This document shows, in pieces, positions 1 to 16,638 of a stretch of 32,804 nt of DNA (position 1 is the stretch's first letter; every line of letters begins with the position of its first letter). The stretch lies in NCBI GenBank assembly GCA_020062745.1, contig JAGUVT010000020.1, positions 1-32,804 on the forward strand, written 5' to 3'. A program made the translations under genes and the position numbers. A model generated the notes under the pieces. The model did no database searches. It was not told the origin of the DNA and saw only the letters and a list, made by a program, of their open reading frames with translations. The DNA is from Deltaproteobacteria bacterium (GTDB lineage: Bacteria; Bacillota; Desulfotomaculia; Desulfotomaculales; JAGUVT01).

Positions 1-1785
1 CTGGCCGGAACCTTCCTGTTTCGTCTGGCCGGTCTGATCACCGGGCTGCCCGCCGGTTTTCTGGTACATTGCCGCCGTCAGCTCATAAAGAGGTCCGGTT
101 ACGGCTTCCATCTTCTCTTTGATGAGCTGGATATTGTCGCCCTTTAAGGTTTCTTTCAGTTCGCCGACGGCCTTTTCGAGCCGCTCGACCATGCCGGGAT
201 CAGCGTTATCCTTTATCTCTTTAAGGGTTTTTTCGGCTTGATAGGCCATACTGTCGGCCTGGTTGCGAATCTCTACTTCTTCCTTTCGCTTTTTATCTTC
301 TTCAGCACATTTTTCGGCCTCCTTGACCATACGCTCGACTTCCTCTTCAGTAAGGTTGGTAGAAGCAGTAATGGTCATGCTCTGAGCTTTGCCCGTACCA
401 AGGTCTTTAGCCGATACATTGACAATACCGTTTGCGTCGATGTCAAATTTAACTTCAATCTGCGGCACACCTCTGGGCGCCGGTGGAATGCCGGTCAACT
501 GGAACCGTCCCAGAGTCTTGTTGTCTGCTGCCATAGGCCTCTCACCCTGCAACACATGAATATCCACCGTGGTCTGGCCGTCAGCGGCAGTGGAAAAGAT
601 CTGGCTTTTAGAAGTCGGAATGGTGGTATTCCGCTCGATCAGCCTGGTACAGACACTGCCCAGGGTTTCAATCCCGAGAGACAGCGGCGTAACATCCAAA
701 AGCACGACATCTTTTACCTCGCCGGCCAGCACCCCGGCCTGAATGGCCGCCCCGACGGCCACACACTCGTCAGGGTTGATGCCCTTATGGGGCTCCTTAT
801 CTAAAAACCTGCGGATAGCCTCTTGCACCGAAGGCATCCGGGTAGCTCCTCCTACCAGCAATACCTTATCAATATTTTTCGGCTGCAAGCCGGAATCAGA
901 TAAAGCCTGACGAGTCGGTCCCATTGTCTTTTCTACCAGGTCAGCCGTAAGCTCTTCAAATTTCGCCCTGGTCATGGTCATATCCAGGTGCTTGGGGCCA
1001 TCGGCATCAGCTGAAATAAAGGGTAAATTAATACTGGCAGTAAGCACACCGGAAAGCTCGATCTTGGCCTTCTCCGCTGCTTCTTTCAAGCGTTGCATGG
1101 CCATCCGGTCTTTGCGCAGATCAATACCGGTTTCTTTTTTGAACTCATCCGCCAGGTAATCCATAACCCGCTGGTCGAAATCATCCCCCCCCAAACGGTT
1201 GTTACCACTGGTGGACTTAACCTCAAACACACCATCGCCCAATTCCAGTATGGACACGTCAAAGGTGCCCCCACCCAGGTCAAAAACCAGGATGGTCTGA
1301 CCCTCTTCTTTATCCAACCCGTAGGCCAGGGCTGCCGCCGTAGGCTCATTAATAATTCTGAGCACTTCCAGCCCGGCAATCTTTCCGGCATCCTTGGTGG
1401 CCTGGCGCTGCGCATCGCTGAAATAAGCAGGTACGGTAATGACTGCTTTTTCCACTTTCTCACCCAGGTAAGCCTCCGCATCAGTCTTTAACTTTTGTAA
1501 GATCATGGCCGAAATCTCTTGCGGGGTATAATTTTTACCGTCAACAGTTACTTTATAGTCTGAACCCATCTGGCGCTTGATGGAACTAACCGTGCGATCC
1601 GGGTTGCTTACCGCCTGACGTTTGGCTACCTGCCCTACCAGCCGCTCGCCGGTTTTGGAAAAACCAACTACCGAAGGAGTGGTTCTGGACCCTTCGGCGT
1701 TAGGAATAACTACTGCCTCCCCACCTTCCATCACCGCCACACAGGAGTTGGTAGTACCCAAATCAATTCCAATCACCTTAGCCAT
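1..1785 (-). CDS. dnaK: Molecular chaperone DnaK (Hsp70), C-terminal end cut by window edge
   Basis: ATP-dependent cytosolic Hsp70 that works with GrpE (encoded just upstream) and DnaJ. The minus frame opens at an ATG at 1783-1785 and reads [15 protein letters not shown], the classic Hsp70 nucleotide-binding start. It continues with [30 protein letters not shown] and [11 protein letters not shown], which are the phosphate and adenosine-binding motifs of the ATPase domain. 595 codons are present. The reading frame is still open at base 1 in a Gly/Gln-rich linker typical of the extreme C-terminus, so only a short tail is missing. An AGGAGGT site lies in the end of grpE, and the grpE stop is one base before this start, so translation is probably coupled. 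Last visible gene of the CIRCE-controlled operon; dnaJ would be expected just left of the window. Confidence 0.97.
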
Positions 1786-1786
1786 T

Positions 1787-2422
1787 CTATTCGACCTCCT
1801 GCTCAGTTATCTCCAGCTTCTTCGCAATCTTAACCAAAACCGGCCGGATTACCTTATCCTTCAGGCAATAACCCCGCCTTAATTCTGCGAGCACCGTATT
1901 TTCCGGGTAATCAGCGCTTTCCTCTTGAATTACTGCTTCATGCCTGGCCGGATCAAACTGCTCGCCAACCGCCGGTATGGGAGACAGTCCTTCCGCTCTC
2001 AACACGTCTTGAAACTGCCTGTAGATCATCTCTATACCGGCTTTAAAATCTTCCACTGATTCACCCCCGGCTTCTAAAGCCCGCTCGAAATTATCCAGCA
2101 CCGGCAGGAGAGCTACCACCAGATGCTCTGCCGCGTACTTCCATAAATTTTCTTTTTCCTGCCTGGCTCGCCGCCGGAAATTTTCAAAGTCGGCCTGAAG
2201 CCGGATCAGGCGGTTATAGTATTCTTCTGCCAGCGCCGCTGGATCGGGCTGTGCTTCTGCTTCCACTTCCGCTTCCAGCACGGTCTCAACTAAATCTGTT
2301 TTCATTCCGGCATCAGCTTCCACTTCCGTAAGCTTTTGACCGGCTGTTTCTCCCTTTGCTGAAATATCCTTTTCCGCCAATTCATCACTTGTTTCCTTAC
2401 CTTCCAAATCTATATTACCCAA
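1787..2422 (-). CDS. grpE: Nucleotide exchange factor GrpE
   Basis: Cofactor that releases ADP from DnaK. 211 residues, with a long acidic N-terminal arm (about residues 1-65, rich in Glu/Asp/Ala), then the dimerising helix ([20 protein letters not shown]) and the C-terminal beta domain ending with [25 protein letters not shown]-type sequence characteristic of GrpE. The start is a TTG at 2420-2422, chosen because a GGAGGT site sits about 8-9 bases upstream (2432-2437) and no in-frame ATG precedes it. It lies between the chaperonin gene (26 bases upstream) and dnaK (1 base downstream). The long acidic arm is common in Firmicute GrpE. Family assignment is firm. Confidence 0.96.
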
Positions 2423-2448: not shown

Positions 2449-4017
2449 CTATGCCTGCCCGGTATCCTGACCAAACATTACTTTTTCTTCCCGTTTTTTG
2501 ATAATGGTGTCTATGCGCAGGATCGCTTCCGCTACTTCACCGGCTGCCTTAAGCGCATAAGCCTTTACCGGCGCCGGGTCAATAATACCCAACTCATACA
2601 TATCGGCCACCTGGCCGGTATCACAATCAACCGCCAGGGAATAACTGCCGGTTTCTGCCTGAACAGCGTTAACATCACCAAGCTTCTCTAACGGATTAAA
2701 GCCGGCATTGGCTACAATTTGGGCCATCGGCCGTTTCAACGATTCTACCACGCAGTCTACTCCGTAAGCCGCCATGCCTCGTGTGCTTTCCCGCACCTTC
2801 TCTACCTCCCGGGCCGCAGCCAGTTCCAGGGAGCCGCCACCAGCGACTACTCCCCCTCTCACCGCAGCCTGCACTGAGGCAGCGGCATCTCTGGCAATGC
2901 GCTCCCTTTCTCCCACCACCTCGGCCGTAGCCGCTCCCACCAACACAGTGGCCATGGGTTTGCCGCCGCCATCCAACACCCATACCTGTTCCAGCTTTTC
3001 GTTACTGGAAACACGGCCGGCATAACCCAGGCACCCGCCCAACTCAACTGCACTTTTTTTTAACCCGGTTCTCTTAATTATCCTGGCGCCGGTATGTTCA
3101 GCTGCTTTGCGCAGCTCTTTATTAGGCACACGCTGGATTACCATCACTCCCGCATCAGTTAAAATTTCCTCAGCGGCATCATCTACACCCCTGTCGACCA
3201 GCACAAGCCCAACGCCCAGATCGACAATTTTTTGGATATTCTCCTTAAATTCAGCCCGCAATTCTAAATAACGGGCAACCCCGGCCTCCGTCCTCAACGC
3301 TTCACCTTCAATTTGCTCGGGTTCCAGAGCATCATCAACTACCAGTACCTTAACCCGCTCCAATTCCTTCGGCATCTGCCGGCCCATCCGCTCTTTGTTA
3401 ATGATTGTGCCCATAAAGACCTGATTTTCCGCTCCTTCTCTGGCCATTATGGCATCTGAAAATTTAAAGGAAATATCCCTTAGTTTCTCTTCACCAATCA
3501 GCACAGCCGCTTTTACCACCAGGTCGGCAATATCTTCACGGTTTCGGCCGGCCACCAGGGCAGCCTGGCGGATCAATGGATCGCCCAGCCCGGCTACCGG
3601 CCGGGAGTGCTCCTGCATCACCGCCAGCGCCCGTTTCAAGCCAATACGCAGGCCTTCAATTACCCTGGCTACCGGCACCCCTCTGACCACCTGTTCTACT
3701 CCAGAAGCGACAAGGGTACCCGCCATGACGGTAGCCGTGGTGGTGCCGTCTCCCACTTCCTCCTGCTGAGCCCTGGCAATATTAATCAACATCCTGGCCG
3801 CCGGGTGGTTGGCTTCCATCATGGACAGAATGGTCACCCCGTCGTTGGTAATAACCACTTCACCAAATTTATCCACCAGCATGGTATCCAAACCCTTGGG
3901 CCCGAGCGTGCCCTCTACCGCCGAGGTAATGGCCCGGATGGCGTTGGCGTTGGTCATCAGGGCCGCCAGCTTCTCATCTACCTCCGACCCCGTACTTGCT
4001 TCCTTTTTCAAACTCAA
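2449..4017 (-). CDS. Archaeal-like (group III) chaperonin, TCP-1/thermosome fold
   Basis: A 60-kDa ring chaperonin resembling archaeal thermosome/CCT rather than GroEL. With the TTG start at 4015-4017 the protein has 522 residues. Visible motifs: [13 protein letters not shown] near 37-49, NDGVTI near 58-63, the ATP-site GDGTTT at about 89-94, a Gly-rich [13 protein letters not shown] in the C-terminal equatorial domain, and [14 protein letters not shown] near the end. The middle contains [17 protein letters not shown] followed by a helical stretch matching the group II built-in lid, so no GroES partner is expected, and none is encoded here. The tail lacks a GGM repeat. The start is chosen because AGGAGG lies 9 bases upstream; a GTG further upstream lies inside hrcA. 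Techtmann and Robb described such bacterial 'group III' chaperonins from Carboxydothermus and a few other Firmicutes, also beside hsp70 genes. Position between hrcA and grpE puts it under HrcA. Confidence 0.93.
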
Positions 4018-4033
4018 ACAATTACTCCTCCTC

Positions 4034-5065
4034 TCAGCCCTGGAAAACACGCTCCAATGCCTGTGAAAGGCTCTTTCGCATAAAATCTATAATGCCTATT
4101 ACCTTAGCATATTCCATCCGGGTAGGGCCAAGCACGCCGATAGAGCCGACCACCCGGTCACCAACCTGATAGGAAGCGGTAACCATACTGCATTCCTGGA
4201 TATCTTTGTGGTTAATCTCACCGCCGATACGGACAGTAACCGCACCGGTATTTTCCTTAACAGCCAGTAAACTACATAACTGTTCTTCCTGCTCCAGCAA
4301 ACTGAGCAGGGTCTTTACCTTTTCCACGTTATGAAACTCCGGCTGGTTTAAAATATTAAATACCCCGCCAAGGTAAACTTTATCCTCACTTTTCAAGGAG
4401 AAGCTGTCTTGAATCAGTTCCATTGCCAGGTCCACAAAATGCCTGTGCCCTACCAGCTCATTATAAATCTCTTTGATCAAGACAAGCTTAATTTTTTCCA
4501 TTGTAAGACCTTGCAGTTTGGCGTTAAGCACACTGGAAACAGTCTCCAGATCGGCCGGTGTAACACTTTCCGGCAGGTCAATCATCCGGTTATGAACCGT
4601 TCCGGTATCCATAACCACAATTACGATGGCATTAGATTGAAATATGGGAACCAGTTGGATATGCTTAAAGGCAGACATGCCGGACTGCGGCTTCAGTACC
4701 ATAGCGGCACACTGGGTCAACTGGGACAACAGTTGGCCGGTACGTTGAATAACCTGACCGATATCCTTAACCTTGGACTCGTATTCCTTGCAGATCAAGG
4801 CCGCCTCTTCACCGGTCAACTCCCGCTGCTGCATTAAATAATCCACGTAATAACGGTAGCCGCGATCCGAAGGAATCCGGCCGGCAGAAGTATGCGGCTG
4901 TTGAACATAACCCAGTTCTTCCAGGTCAGCCATTTCATTTCGAACCGTGGCCGGGCTCACTCCTAATTTATACTTCCTGACAATAGTACGTGAACCTACC
5001 GGCTCGGCAGTGGCTATATAATCATTCACAATAGCCGAAAGCACCATCCGTTTGCGGTCATCCAT
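4034..5065 (-). CDS. hrcA: Heat-inducible transcription repressor HrcA
   Basis: Winged-helix repressor that binds CIRCE and is the usual regulator of dnaK and groE operons in Firmicutes. The chosen ATG at 5063-5065 gives 343 residues beginning [17 protein letters not shown], which matches the normal HrcA start. A GTG at 5084-5086 would overlap the AGGAGG sequence and is less likely. The N-terminal winged helix includes [35 protein letters not shown]-type sequence followed by [20 protein letters not shown], both HrcA hallmarks; the rest is the GAF-like and dimerisation region. The CIRCE operator and a sigma-A-type promoter lie directly upstream, so the operon is autorepressed. The stop lies 16 bases before the chaperonin start. 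Confidence 0.96.
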
Positions 5066-5093
5066 AATTACCCCAAACCGGTTCACCTCCTTG

Positions 5094-5120
5094 TTAGCAC
5101 TCTATCTTTATGAGTGCTAA
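5094..5120 (-). promoter_or_regulatory. CIRCE operator (HrcA-binding site)
   Basis: Perfect TTAGCACTC - 9 bases - GAGTGCTAA inverted repeat, identical to the CIRCE consensus. It sits between the promoter and the hrcA start, so bound HrcA would block transcription of hrcA-chaperonin-grpE-dnaK. Heat or misfolded protein would relieve repression. Confidence 0.97.
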
Positions 5121-5133
5121 AACTCCATTATCT

Positions 5134-5162
5134 AAAATAGCACCTGCCCAATAAATTGTCAA
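5134..5162 (-). promoter_or_regulatory. Sigma-A-type promoter of the hrcA operon
   Basis: On the minus strand, an exact TTGACA (5157-5162) is followed after 17 bases by TATTTT (5134-5139). The predicted start point lies just before the CIRCE element, the usual arrangement for HrcA repression. Confidence 0.75.
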
Positions 5163-15987: not shown

Positions 15988-16638
15988 ATGTACGTTTCCA
16001 GCCTCAATCCAAATCAGGTGGTGGCCTTCAACCAGGGCTACCAGACCGGCGCCACGGCCTTACCAGTCACAGTGAGGCCGGGTATGCAGGGTAATACCGT
16101 GACTTACAGTTTCAACCCCTTCTTGAGTCAGTCGGCAGCCATGGCGTTAAATCCCGCCATCACCAGTCAGGCCTTAAACCCGATGTTCAACCAGTCCCTG
16201 GCCTGGGCCTACAACCCCTTAGTAACTCAAAACTGGAGCACCGGGATTAACGCCTGGAATCCCTTTATAAACCAGCAGCAGGCCATGGCCGGTGCCTTCC
16301 TGCCGGGACAGATGGCCCTCAACACCATCCAGTCTTCGGCCGGTCTGGCCCAGATGCGCGTCGACCTACATGAAACCAACAGTGACGTGGTAATTGCAGC
16401 CGAACTGCCCAATGTCAGCTTAAACGATCTGAACCTTACCGTCACCGACGACTCCCTGTCCATTTCTGCCACAGCTTTCGCCGGCAGCAGATGCACCAGC
16501 CTGTTCCGGACGGTGGCTTTGCCGACCTCAATCAAGTCGGAACAGGTGGAAGCCACTTATACCAACGGGATCCTGGAAATCCGGGCGCCCAAGTCGGATG
16601 TGGTTACCCGCCGGAAAATAAAGGTGAATATAGCGTAA
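15988..16638 (+). CDS. Hsp20/alpha-crystallin-like protein with Asn-Pro repeat arm
   Basis: 216 residues, ATG behind AAGGAGGTC. The C-terminal domain (about 122-216) is a good alpha-crystallin match: MRVDLHETNSDVVIAAELPNV, then LNLTVTDDSLSISA, then FRTVALPTSIKSEQVEATYTNGILEIRAPK-type sequence, with the conserved 'Y-x-NGILEI' and an Arg/Lys-rich last strand. The 120-residue N-terminal arm is unusual: it is rich in Asn, Gln, Ala and aromatics and carries repeats of aromatic/Leu-Asn-Pro-x-x-x-Gln at 42-48, 54-61, 63-69, 75-81 and 90-96. Such arms in sHsps normally govern oligomerisation and client binding. The gene is divergent from the SDH protease gene and ends at a terminator. Role as holdase is inferred; a spore-coat role is possible. 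Confidence 0.85.
   Translation: MYVSSLNPNQVVAFNQGYQTGATALPVTVRPGMQGNTVTYSFNPFLSQSAAMALNPAITSQALNPMFNQSLAWAYNPLVTQNWSTGINAWNPFINQQQAMAGAFLPGQMALNTIQSSAGLAQMRVDLHETNSDVVIAAELPNVSLNDLNLTVTDDSLSISATAFAGSRCTSLFRTVALPTSIKSEQVEATYTNGILEIRAPKSDVVTRRKIKVNIA

Follow-up and report, generated by a model that had tools for sequence, protein, structure and literature searches.

A chaperonin gene within a CIRCE/HrcA heat-shock operon

The window, meaning the whole stretch of 32,804 nucleotides that was analysed, carries a chaperonin gene (cpn) between hrcA and grpE. Coordinates without a contig label are window positions. The features of this region are the following:

1–1785, minus strand: dnaK, cut by the contig end (TIGR02350, 959 bits)
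1787–2422, minus strand: grpE, nucleotide exchange factor of DnaK (NF010738, 171 bits against a cut-off of 137)
2449–4017, minus strand: cpn, Group III (archaeal-like) chaperonin of 522 aa with a TTG start at 4017 (profiles, structure matches, tree and alignment)
4027–4032, minus strand: AGGAGG, ribosome-binding site of cpn read from the sequence, nine bases 5' of the TTG
4034–5086, minus strand: hrcA, heat-inducible repressor (TIGR00331, 370 bits against a cut-off of 197)
5094–5120: perfect CIRCE operator, TTAGCACTC-N9-GAGTGCTAA, expected HrcA binding site (operator search)
5134–5162, minus strand: sigma-A-type promoter, TTGACA-17-TATTTT with an extended -10 TG (10 of 12 consensus positions; a consensus match only)

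The four genes hrcA-cpn-grpE-dnaK stand head to tail on the minus strand, with gaps of 16, 26 and 1 nt. The exact start of hrcA is uncertain, with an in-frame ATG lying about 20 nt further in. Shuffling the sequence 100 times gave an expectation of 0 for a perfect CIRCE. Inspection of the minus strand from CIRCE to the start of dnaK revealed no terminator-like site which, together with the gaps of only 1–26 nt, suggests that these genes are co-transcribed. Contig C78 of the same genome begins with VVDADYEVK-stop, which looks like the last codons of DnaK, followed at position 77 by dnaJ, its first full gene. No sequence overlap was found between C49 and C78, and the operon is most likely hrcA-cpn-grpE-dnaK-dnaJ, with dnaJ across the contig break. 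This predicted arrangement resembles the class I hrcA-grpE-dnaK-dnaJ operon in having hrcA first, CIRCE at the promoter and the order grpE-dnaK-dnaJ, but differs in the chaperonin gene inserted between hrcA and grpE.

The initial annotation had placed the chaperonin in a CIRCE/HrcA operon, and hrcA upstream, grpE and dnaK downstream and the perfect operator bear this out. Profile matches, the tree, structure comparisons and gene neighbourhood together support its reading as a whole, namely Group III identity, the CIRCE/HrcA operon and a transcription unit shared with grpE-dnaK. Elsewhere in the window, at 15988–16638 on the plus strand, lies a gene for a 216-aa protein that carries an HSP20/alpha-crystallin domain at its C-terminus and matches no NCBIfam model strongly; it is possibly a small heat-shock protein.

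The protein is a Group III chaperonin related to Ch-CPN

The open reading frame is real and its product matches the Pfam family Cpn60_TCP1 with 358 bits in a profile search. Against the NCBIfam models the best scores are those of the archaeal thermosomes (290–291 bits, with cut-offs of 400–671), while the GroEL models reach 35–161 bits with cut-offs of 352 or more. All these scores thus fall under the models' own cut-offs, as would be expected of a third group. By sequence, the nearest natural protein of solved structure is Ch-CPN from Carboxydothermus hydrogenoformans (5x9u, 475 bits, E 3e-141), whereas the natural thermosomes and CCT score no more than 237 bits. The best solved-structure match overall is 9rwq, with 684 bits. 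In this entry the chain's molecule name reads "Ancestral Group II Chaperonin (ACII)", and the title gives ACIII, the resurrected ancestor of Group III; this title and the 684-bit likeness to the window protein identify it as ACIII. An AlphaFold model of the window protein, built from 23 sequences, had a mean pLDDT of 88.8, and in a Foldseek search it retrieved the two Ch-CPN structures first (5x9v and 5x9u, TM 0.88 and 0.87), with thermosomes next.

The initial annotation had suggested a phylogeny as one of its checks. We computed an unrooted maximum-likelihood tree of 56 chaperonins, in which a branch with support 92/88 separates all 43 Group III rows, including Ch-CPN and the window protein, from the remaining sequences. 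This support is taken as moderate, since the branches between the groups are long. The GroEL branch (100/100) and the thermosome branch (100/99) both leave the window protein outside, and placement inside GroEL is therefore excluded.

The features considered diagnostic of Group III, among them Arg155 and Asp373 of Ch-CPN for ATP hydrolysis, were described by An et al., 2017 (PMC5635000). The alignment shows a 6-column gap relative to thermosomes after window residue A156, where the nucleotide-sensing loop is absent. The eight GroEL rows of the alignment are gapped there too, so this gap separates the window protein from Group II only. R158, equivalent to Arg155, occurs in every Group III row (43/43) but is missing from all GroEL and thermosome rows; following the features of An et al., 2017, it is the predicted arginine that takes over the role of the sensing loop. 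D377, equivalent to Asp373, is likewise found in all 43 Group III rows, and D90 is present in the window protein. The built-in lid and the lack of GGM repeats in the tail, both asserted beforehand, are visible in the alignment: the tail is short with no GGM, and a lid segment is present, with helices at 238–242 and 244–266 (alignment and model), which all eight GroEL rows lack.

In Ch-CPN, the lid-tip hydrophobic residues Leu237, Phe243, Tyr246 and Phe253 were reported as strictly conserved (PMC5635000). The window protein keeps L241, Y250 and F257 at the equivalent positions and has Val247 in place of Phe243. Across the wider set of 43 rows none of the four residues is strictly conserved, and strict conservation of the lid tip hence fails as a mark of the group. 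The Phe243 column holds 39 F, 3 I and 1 V, the window protein being the only one with Val. Since Ile occupies this site in three other Group III rows, Val247 is likely tolerated.

In sum of family, two-helix lid, missing sensing loop and the two catalytic residues, the window protein resembles Ch-CPN (5x9u/5x9v, PMC5635000), with which it shares 47–48% identity in the fold alignment; Ch-CPN is also encoded in the same operon with CIRCE (locus L101). The comparison confirms, at the level of sequence, a Group III chaperonin, very probably an orthologue of the Carboxydothermus Ch-CPN. A recently transferred, true Group II thermosome from archaea is a very improbable reading. The archaeal models do score best among the NCBIfam profiles, Foldseek does rank thermosomes directly after Ch-CPN, and the overall fold and built-in lid are shared with the archaeal thermosome and CCT. 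Nevertheless, the 290 bits stay far under the thermosome cut-offs, the host is bacterial, the sensing loop is missing and the lid tip differs. The protein lies on a separate branch of the tree, in a bacterial clade with Pelotomaculum proteins that are 81–82% identical to it, and the same gene order recurs across the phylum. Even less probable is a divergent GroEL paralogue: the window protein has the Cpn60_TCP1 family, the Cpn60 fold and the GDGTT ATP motif in common with GroEL, but it scores at most 161 bits on GroEL models, is kept out of the GroEL branch with full support, possesses the lid segment missing in 8/8 GroEL rows, and coexists with a normal GroEL.

Two chaperonins with a CIRCE each

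This second Cpn60, encoded on contig C89, is a GroEL with a GGM-type tail and needs GroES, the gene for which stands in front of it. The groES-groEL pair is preceded by its own perfect CIRCE. When the genome, which is 99.65% complete, was searched with up to 3 mismatches allowed, the only two CIRCE sites were those of the hrcA operon and of groES-groEL. The proposal that the chaperonin has no GroES partner is accordingly correct for the operon but not for the genome. The presence of groES-groEL elsewhere makes the Group III chaperonin an addition rather than a replacement. Replacement of GroEL is ruled out more broadly, as GroEL scored above the family cut-off in 80/80 of the Group III carriers tested in the phylum (of 123). 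No GroEL was found in genome bin G407; since this is a metagenome assembly, the case supports no claim. With a CIRCE at each locus, both chaperonins of the window genome are predicted to be controlled by HrcA, as stated for Firmicutes by Techtmann and Robb, 2010, as cited in PMC5904260. This one genome thus contains two chaperonins of different groups, likely under one repressor.

We consider it highly probable that the gene encodes a Group III ring orthologous to Ch-CPN, expressed from a heat-inducible operon repressed by HrcA through CIRCE, and that this ring works beside GroES-GroEL. By homology to Ch-CPN, the protein would form a double ring with eight subunits in each ring. Each chamber would be closed by the ring's own lid helices and not by GroES, and stressed proteins would be folded inside with the use of ATP. 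Release of HrcA upon heat would induce the operon, so that the chaperonin would be made together with HrcA, GrpE, DnaK and DnaJ. GroES-GroEL would operate alongside, and the same HrcA would control it from the second CIRCE. Ring structure, ATPase activity and heat protection are known from work on Ch-CPN and on the resurrected ancestor (PMC5635000, PMC12696368, PMC5220055), and we infer ring assembly, ATPase activity and heat induction for the window protein. A handover of clients from DnaK to the Group III chaperonin has been proposed from gene order and not shown (same three sources), and any such handover would be conjectural here too.

Group III genes are common in the phylum and accompany hrcA

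The initial annotation had described the class as known and rare. The former is correct, but rarity has to be rejected: Group III genes, one copy each, occur in 123 of 398 phylum genomes sampled (31%) and in 84 of 271 genera. The asserted coupling to the HrcA switch is also supported but had already been published for Group III genes (Techtmann and Robb, 2010, as cited in PMC5904260), and the location in the dnaK operon and the control by HrcA are attributed to the same study in PMC5904260, PMC5635000 and PMC5220055. The gene is thus ordinary for its lineage, being of a published kind in an operon context published since 2010 and common in the phylum.

Conservation of the locus was assessed with 80 related loci from named genomes. 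Wherever that side of the gene is present, hrcA lies upstream of cpn (79/79), as it does in another 25 genomes that are divergent or of variant type. Of the 80 loci, 69 have a CIRCE that is perfect or has one mismatch; three others are cut by contig ends and eight are truly without it. From among the most divergent carriers of the phylum 20 were compared, and all 20 have hrcA-cpn-grpE-dnaK complete with a perfect CIRCE. One of these 20 is the L101 genome, whose protein is the aligned Ch-CPN sequence itself (branch length 0). For the field this means that many genomes of the phylum possess a Group III chaperonin, encoded in a single copy and adjacent to hrcA wherever looked at.

A few Group III genes look damaged. 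One consists of two overlapping frames, as after a frame shift (L118, genome G015), another has two internal stops (G317:C21:9500–10999) and a third is a shortened frame (G311:C1:1290286–1291632). Some lineages may be able to do without the gene; alternatively, the sequences may contain errors. At L081, what seemed to be an insertion in the gene was a stretch of masked N.

Loci without dnaK and a possible link to HrcA

Eight Armatimonadota-type loci (L066, L069, L072, L074, L076, L078, L082 and L083) retain the hrcA-cpn association, accompanied by grpE in all cases where the contig extends far enough, and have neither CIRCE nor dnaK adjoining hrcA-cpn. TTGACA-type promoter sequences without CIRCE precede hrcA at these loci, and several CIRCE sites in these genomes stand directly in front of GroEL genes. 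All three of the genomes that were searched for DnaK encode it at another place. Locus L041 is labelled Armatimonadetes, but it clusters with Desulfofundulus and a CIRCE is present, so it was treated as Bacillota-like. At L082, from Candidatus Zipacnadum, hrcA and the Group III gene are separated by an extra ORF without a family assignment (L082:4127–5001). New in this comparison is that cpn remains with hrcA despite the loss of CIRCE and dnaK in Armatimonadota.

A second type of variant is shared by six Bacillota genomes belonging to a single class (G398 with locus L050, G408, G409, G444, G445 and G446). Here the operon lacks grpE and dnaK and has one ORF of about 80–110 aa between cpn and dnaJ, followed in G445 by a longer gap. 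The ORFs are located at:

L050:6629–6955
L153:7153–7440
L154:6464–6742
L159:5654–5974
L160:6505–6756
L161:6274–6549

The ORF matches only positions 223–303 of the HSP70 profile (PF00012). Its model, built from six sequences with a pLDDT of 81, corresponds to subdomain IIB, in lobe II, of the DnaK nucleotide-binding domain. Within each sub-group the Nei-Gojobori dN/dS of the ORF is 0.13–0.30, a range indicative of purifying selection and not of decay. That a conserved, free-standing DnaK subdomain IIB takes the place of grpE-dnaK in these six genomes is the second new element of the comparison.

With these variant operons, gene order becomes a weaker argument for a link to DnaK, and hrcA emerges as the more constant neighbour of cpn. 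The proposed DnaK partnership can be tested against natural operons that no longer contain dnaK. The variants also bring up a possible added function, in which the Group III ring would help to fold active HrcA, and its titration by unfolded proteins would lift repression. GroE is a known activator of HrcA in Bacillus subtilis and several other bacteria (review PMC6032397), which makes a link between the Group III chaperonin and HrcA testable, and cpn follows hrcA in all the loci counted above, even without dnaK or CIRCE. Against this, the GroEL found in all 80 tested Group III genomes could suffice alone, gene order can be preserved by vertical descent, and in Candidatus Zipacnadum the extra ORF separates the two genes. 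We regard such a feedback as unlikely. A broader proposal, which we would advance only as speculation of similarly low probability, is that the Group III chaperonin might be the folding partner of HrcA and not of DnaK, that hrcA-cpn might be the lasting unit, and that the IIB fragment might be a regulator binding GrpE or J-proteins. The Group III ring folding stressed proteins beside GroES-GroEL, under HrcA, remains our preferred reading.

The stand-alone subdomain IIB, more than the Group III gene itself, is the part that deserves separate study. A search of open papers yielded no description of such a protein, which is weak evidence of novelty. A phylum-wide search with a profile of the DnaK fragment recovered mainly full-length DnaK and, among the matches listed, a short frame only in G398. 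This genome also encodes a full-length DnaK, with grpE downstream, at another location.
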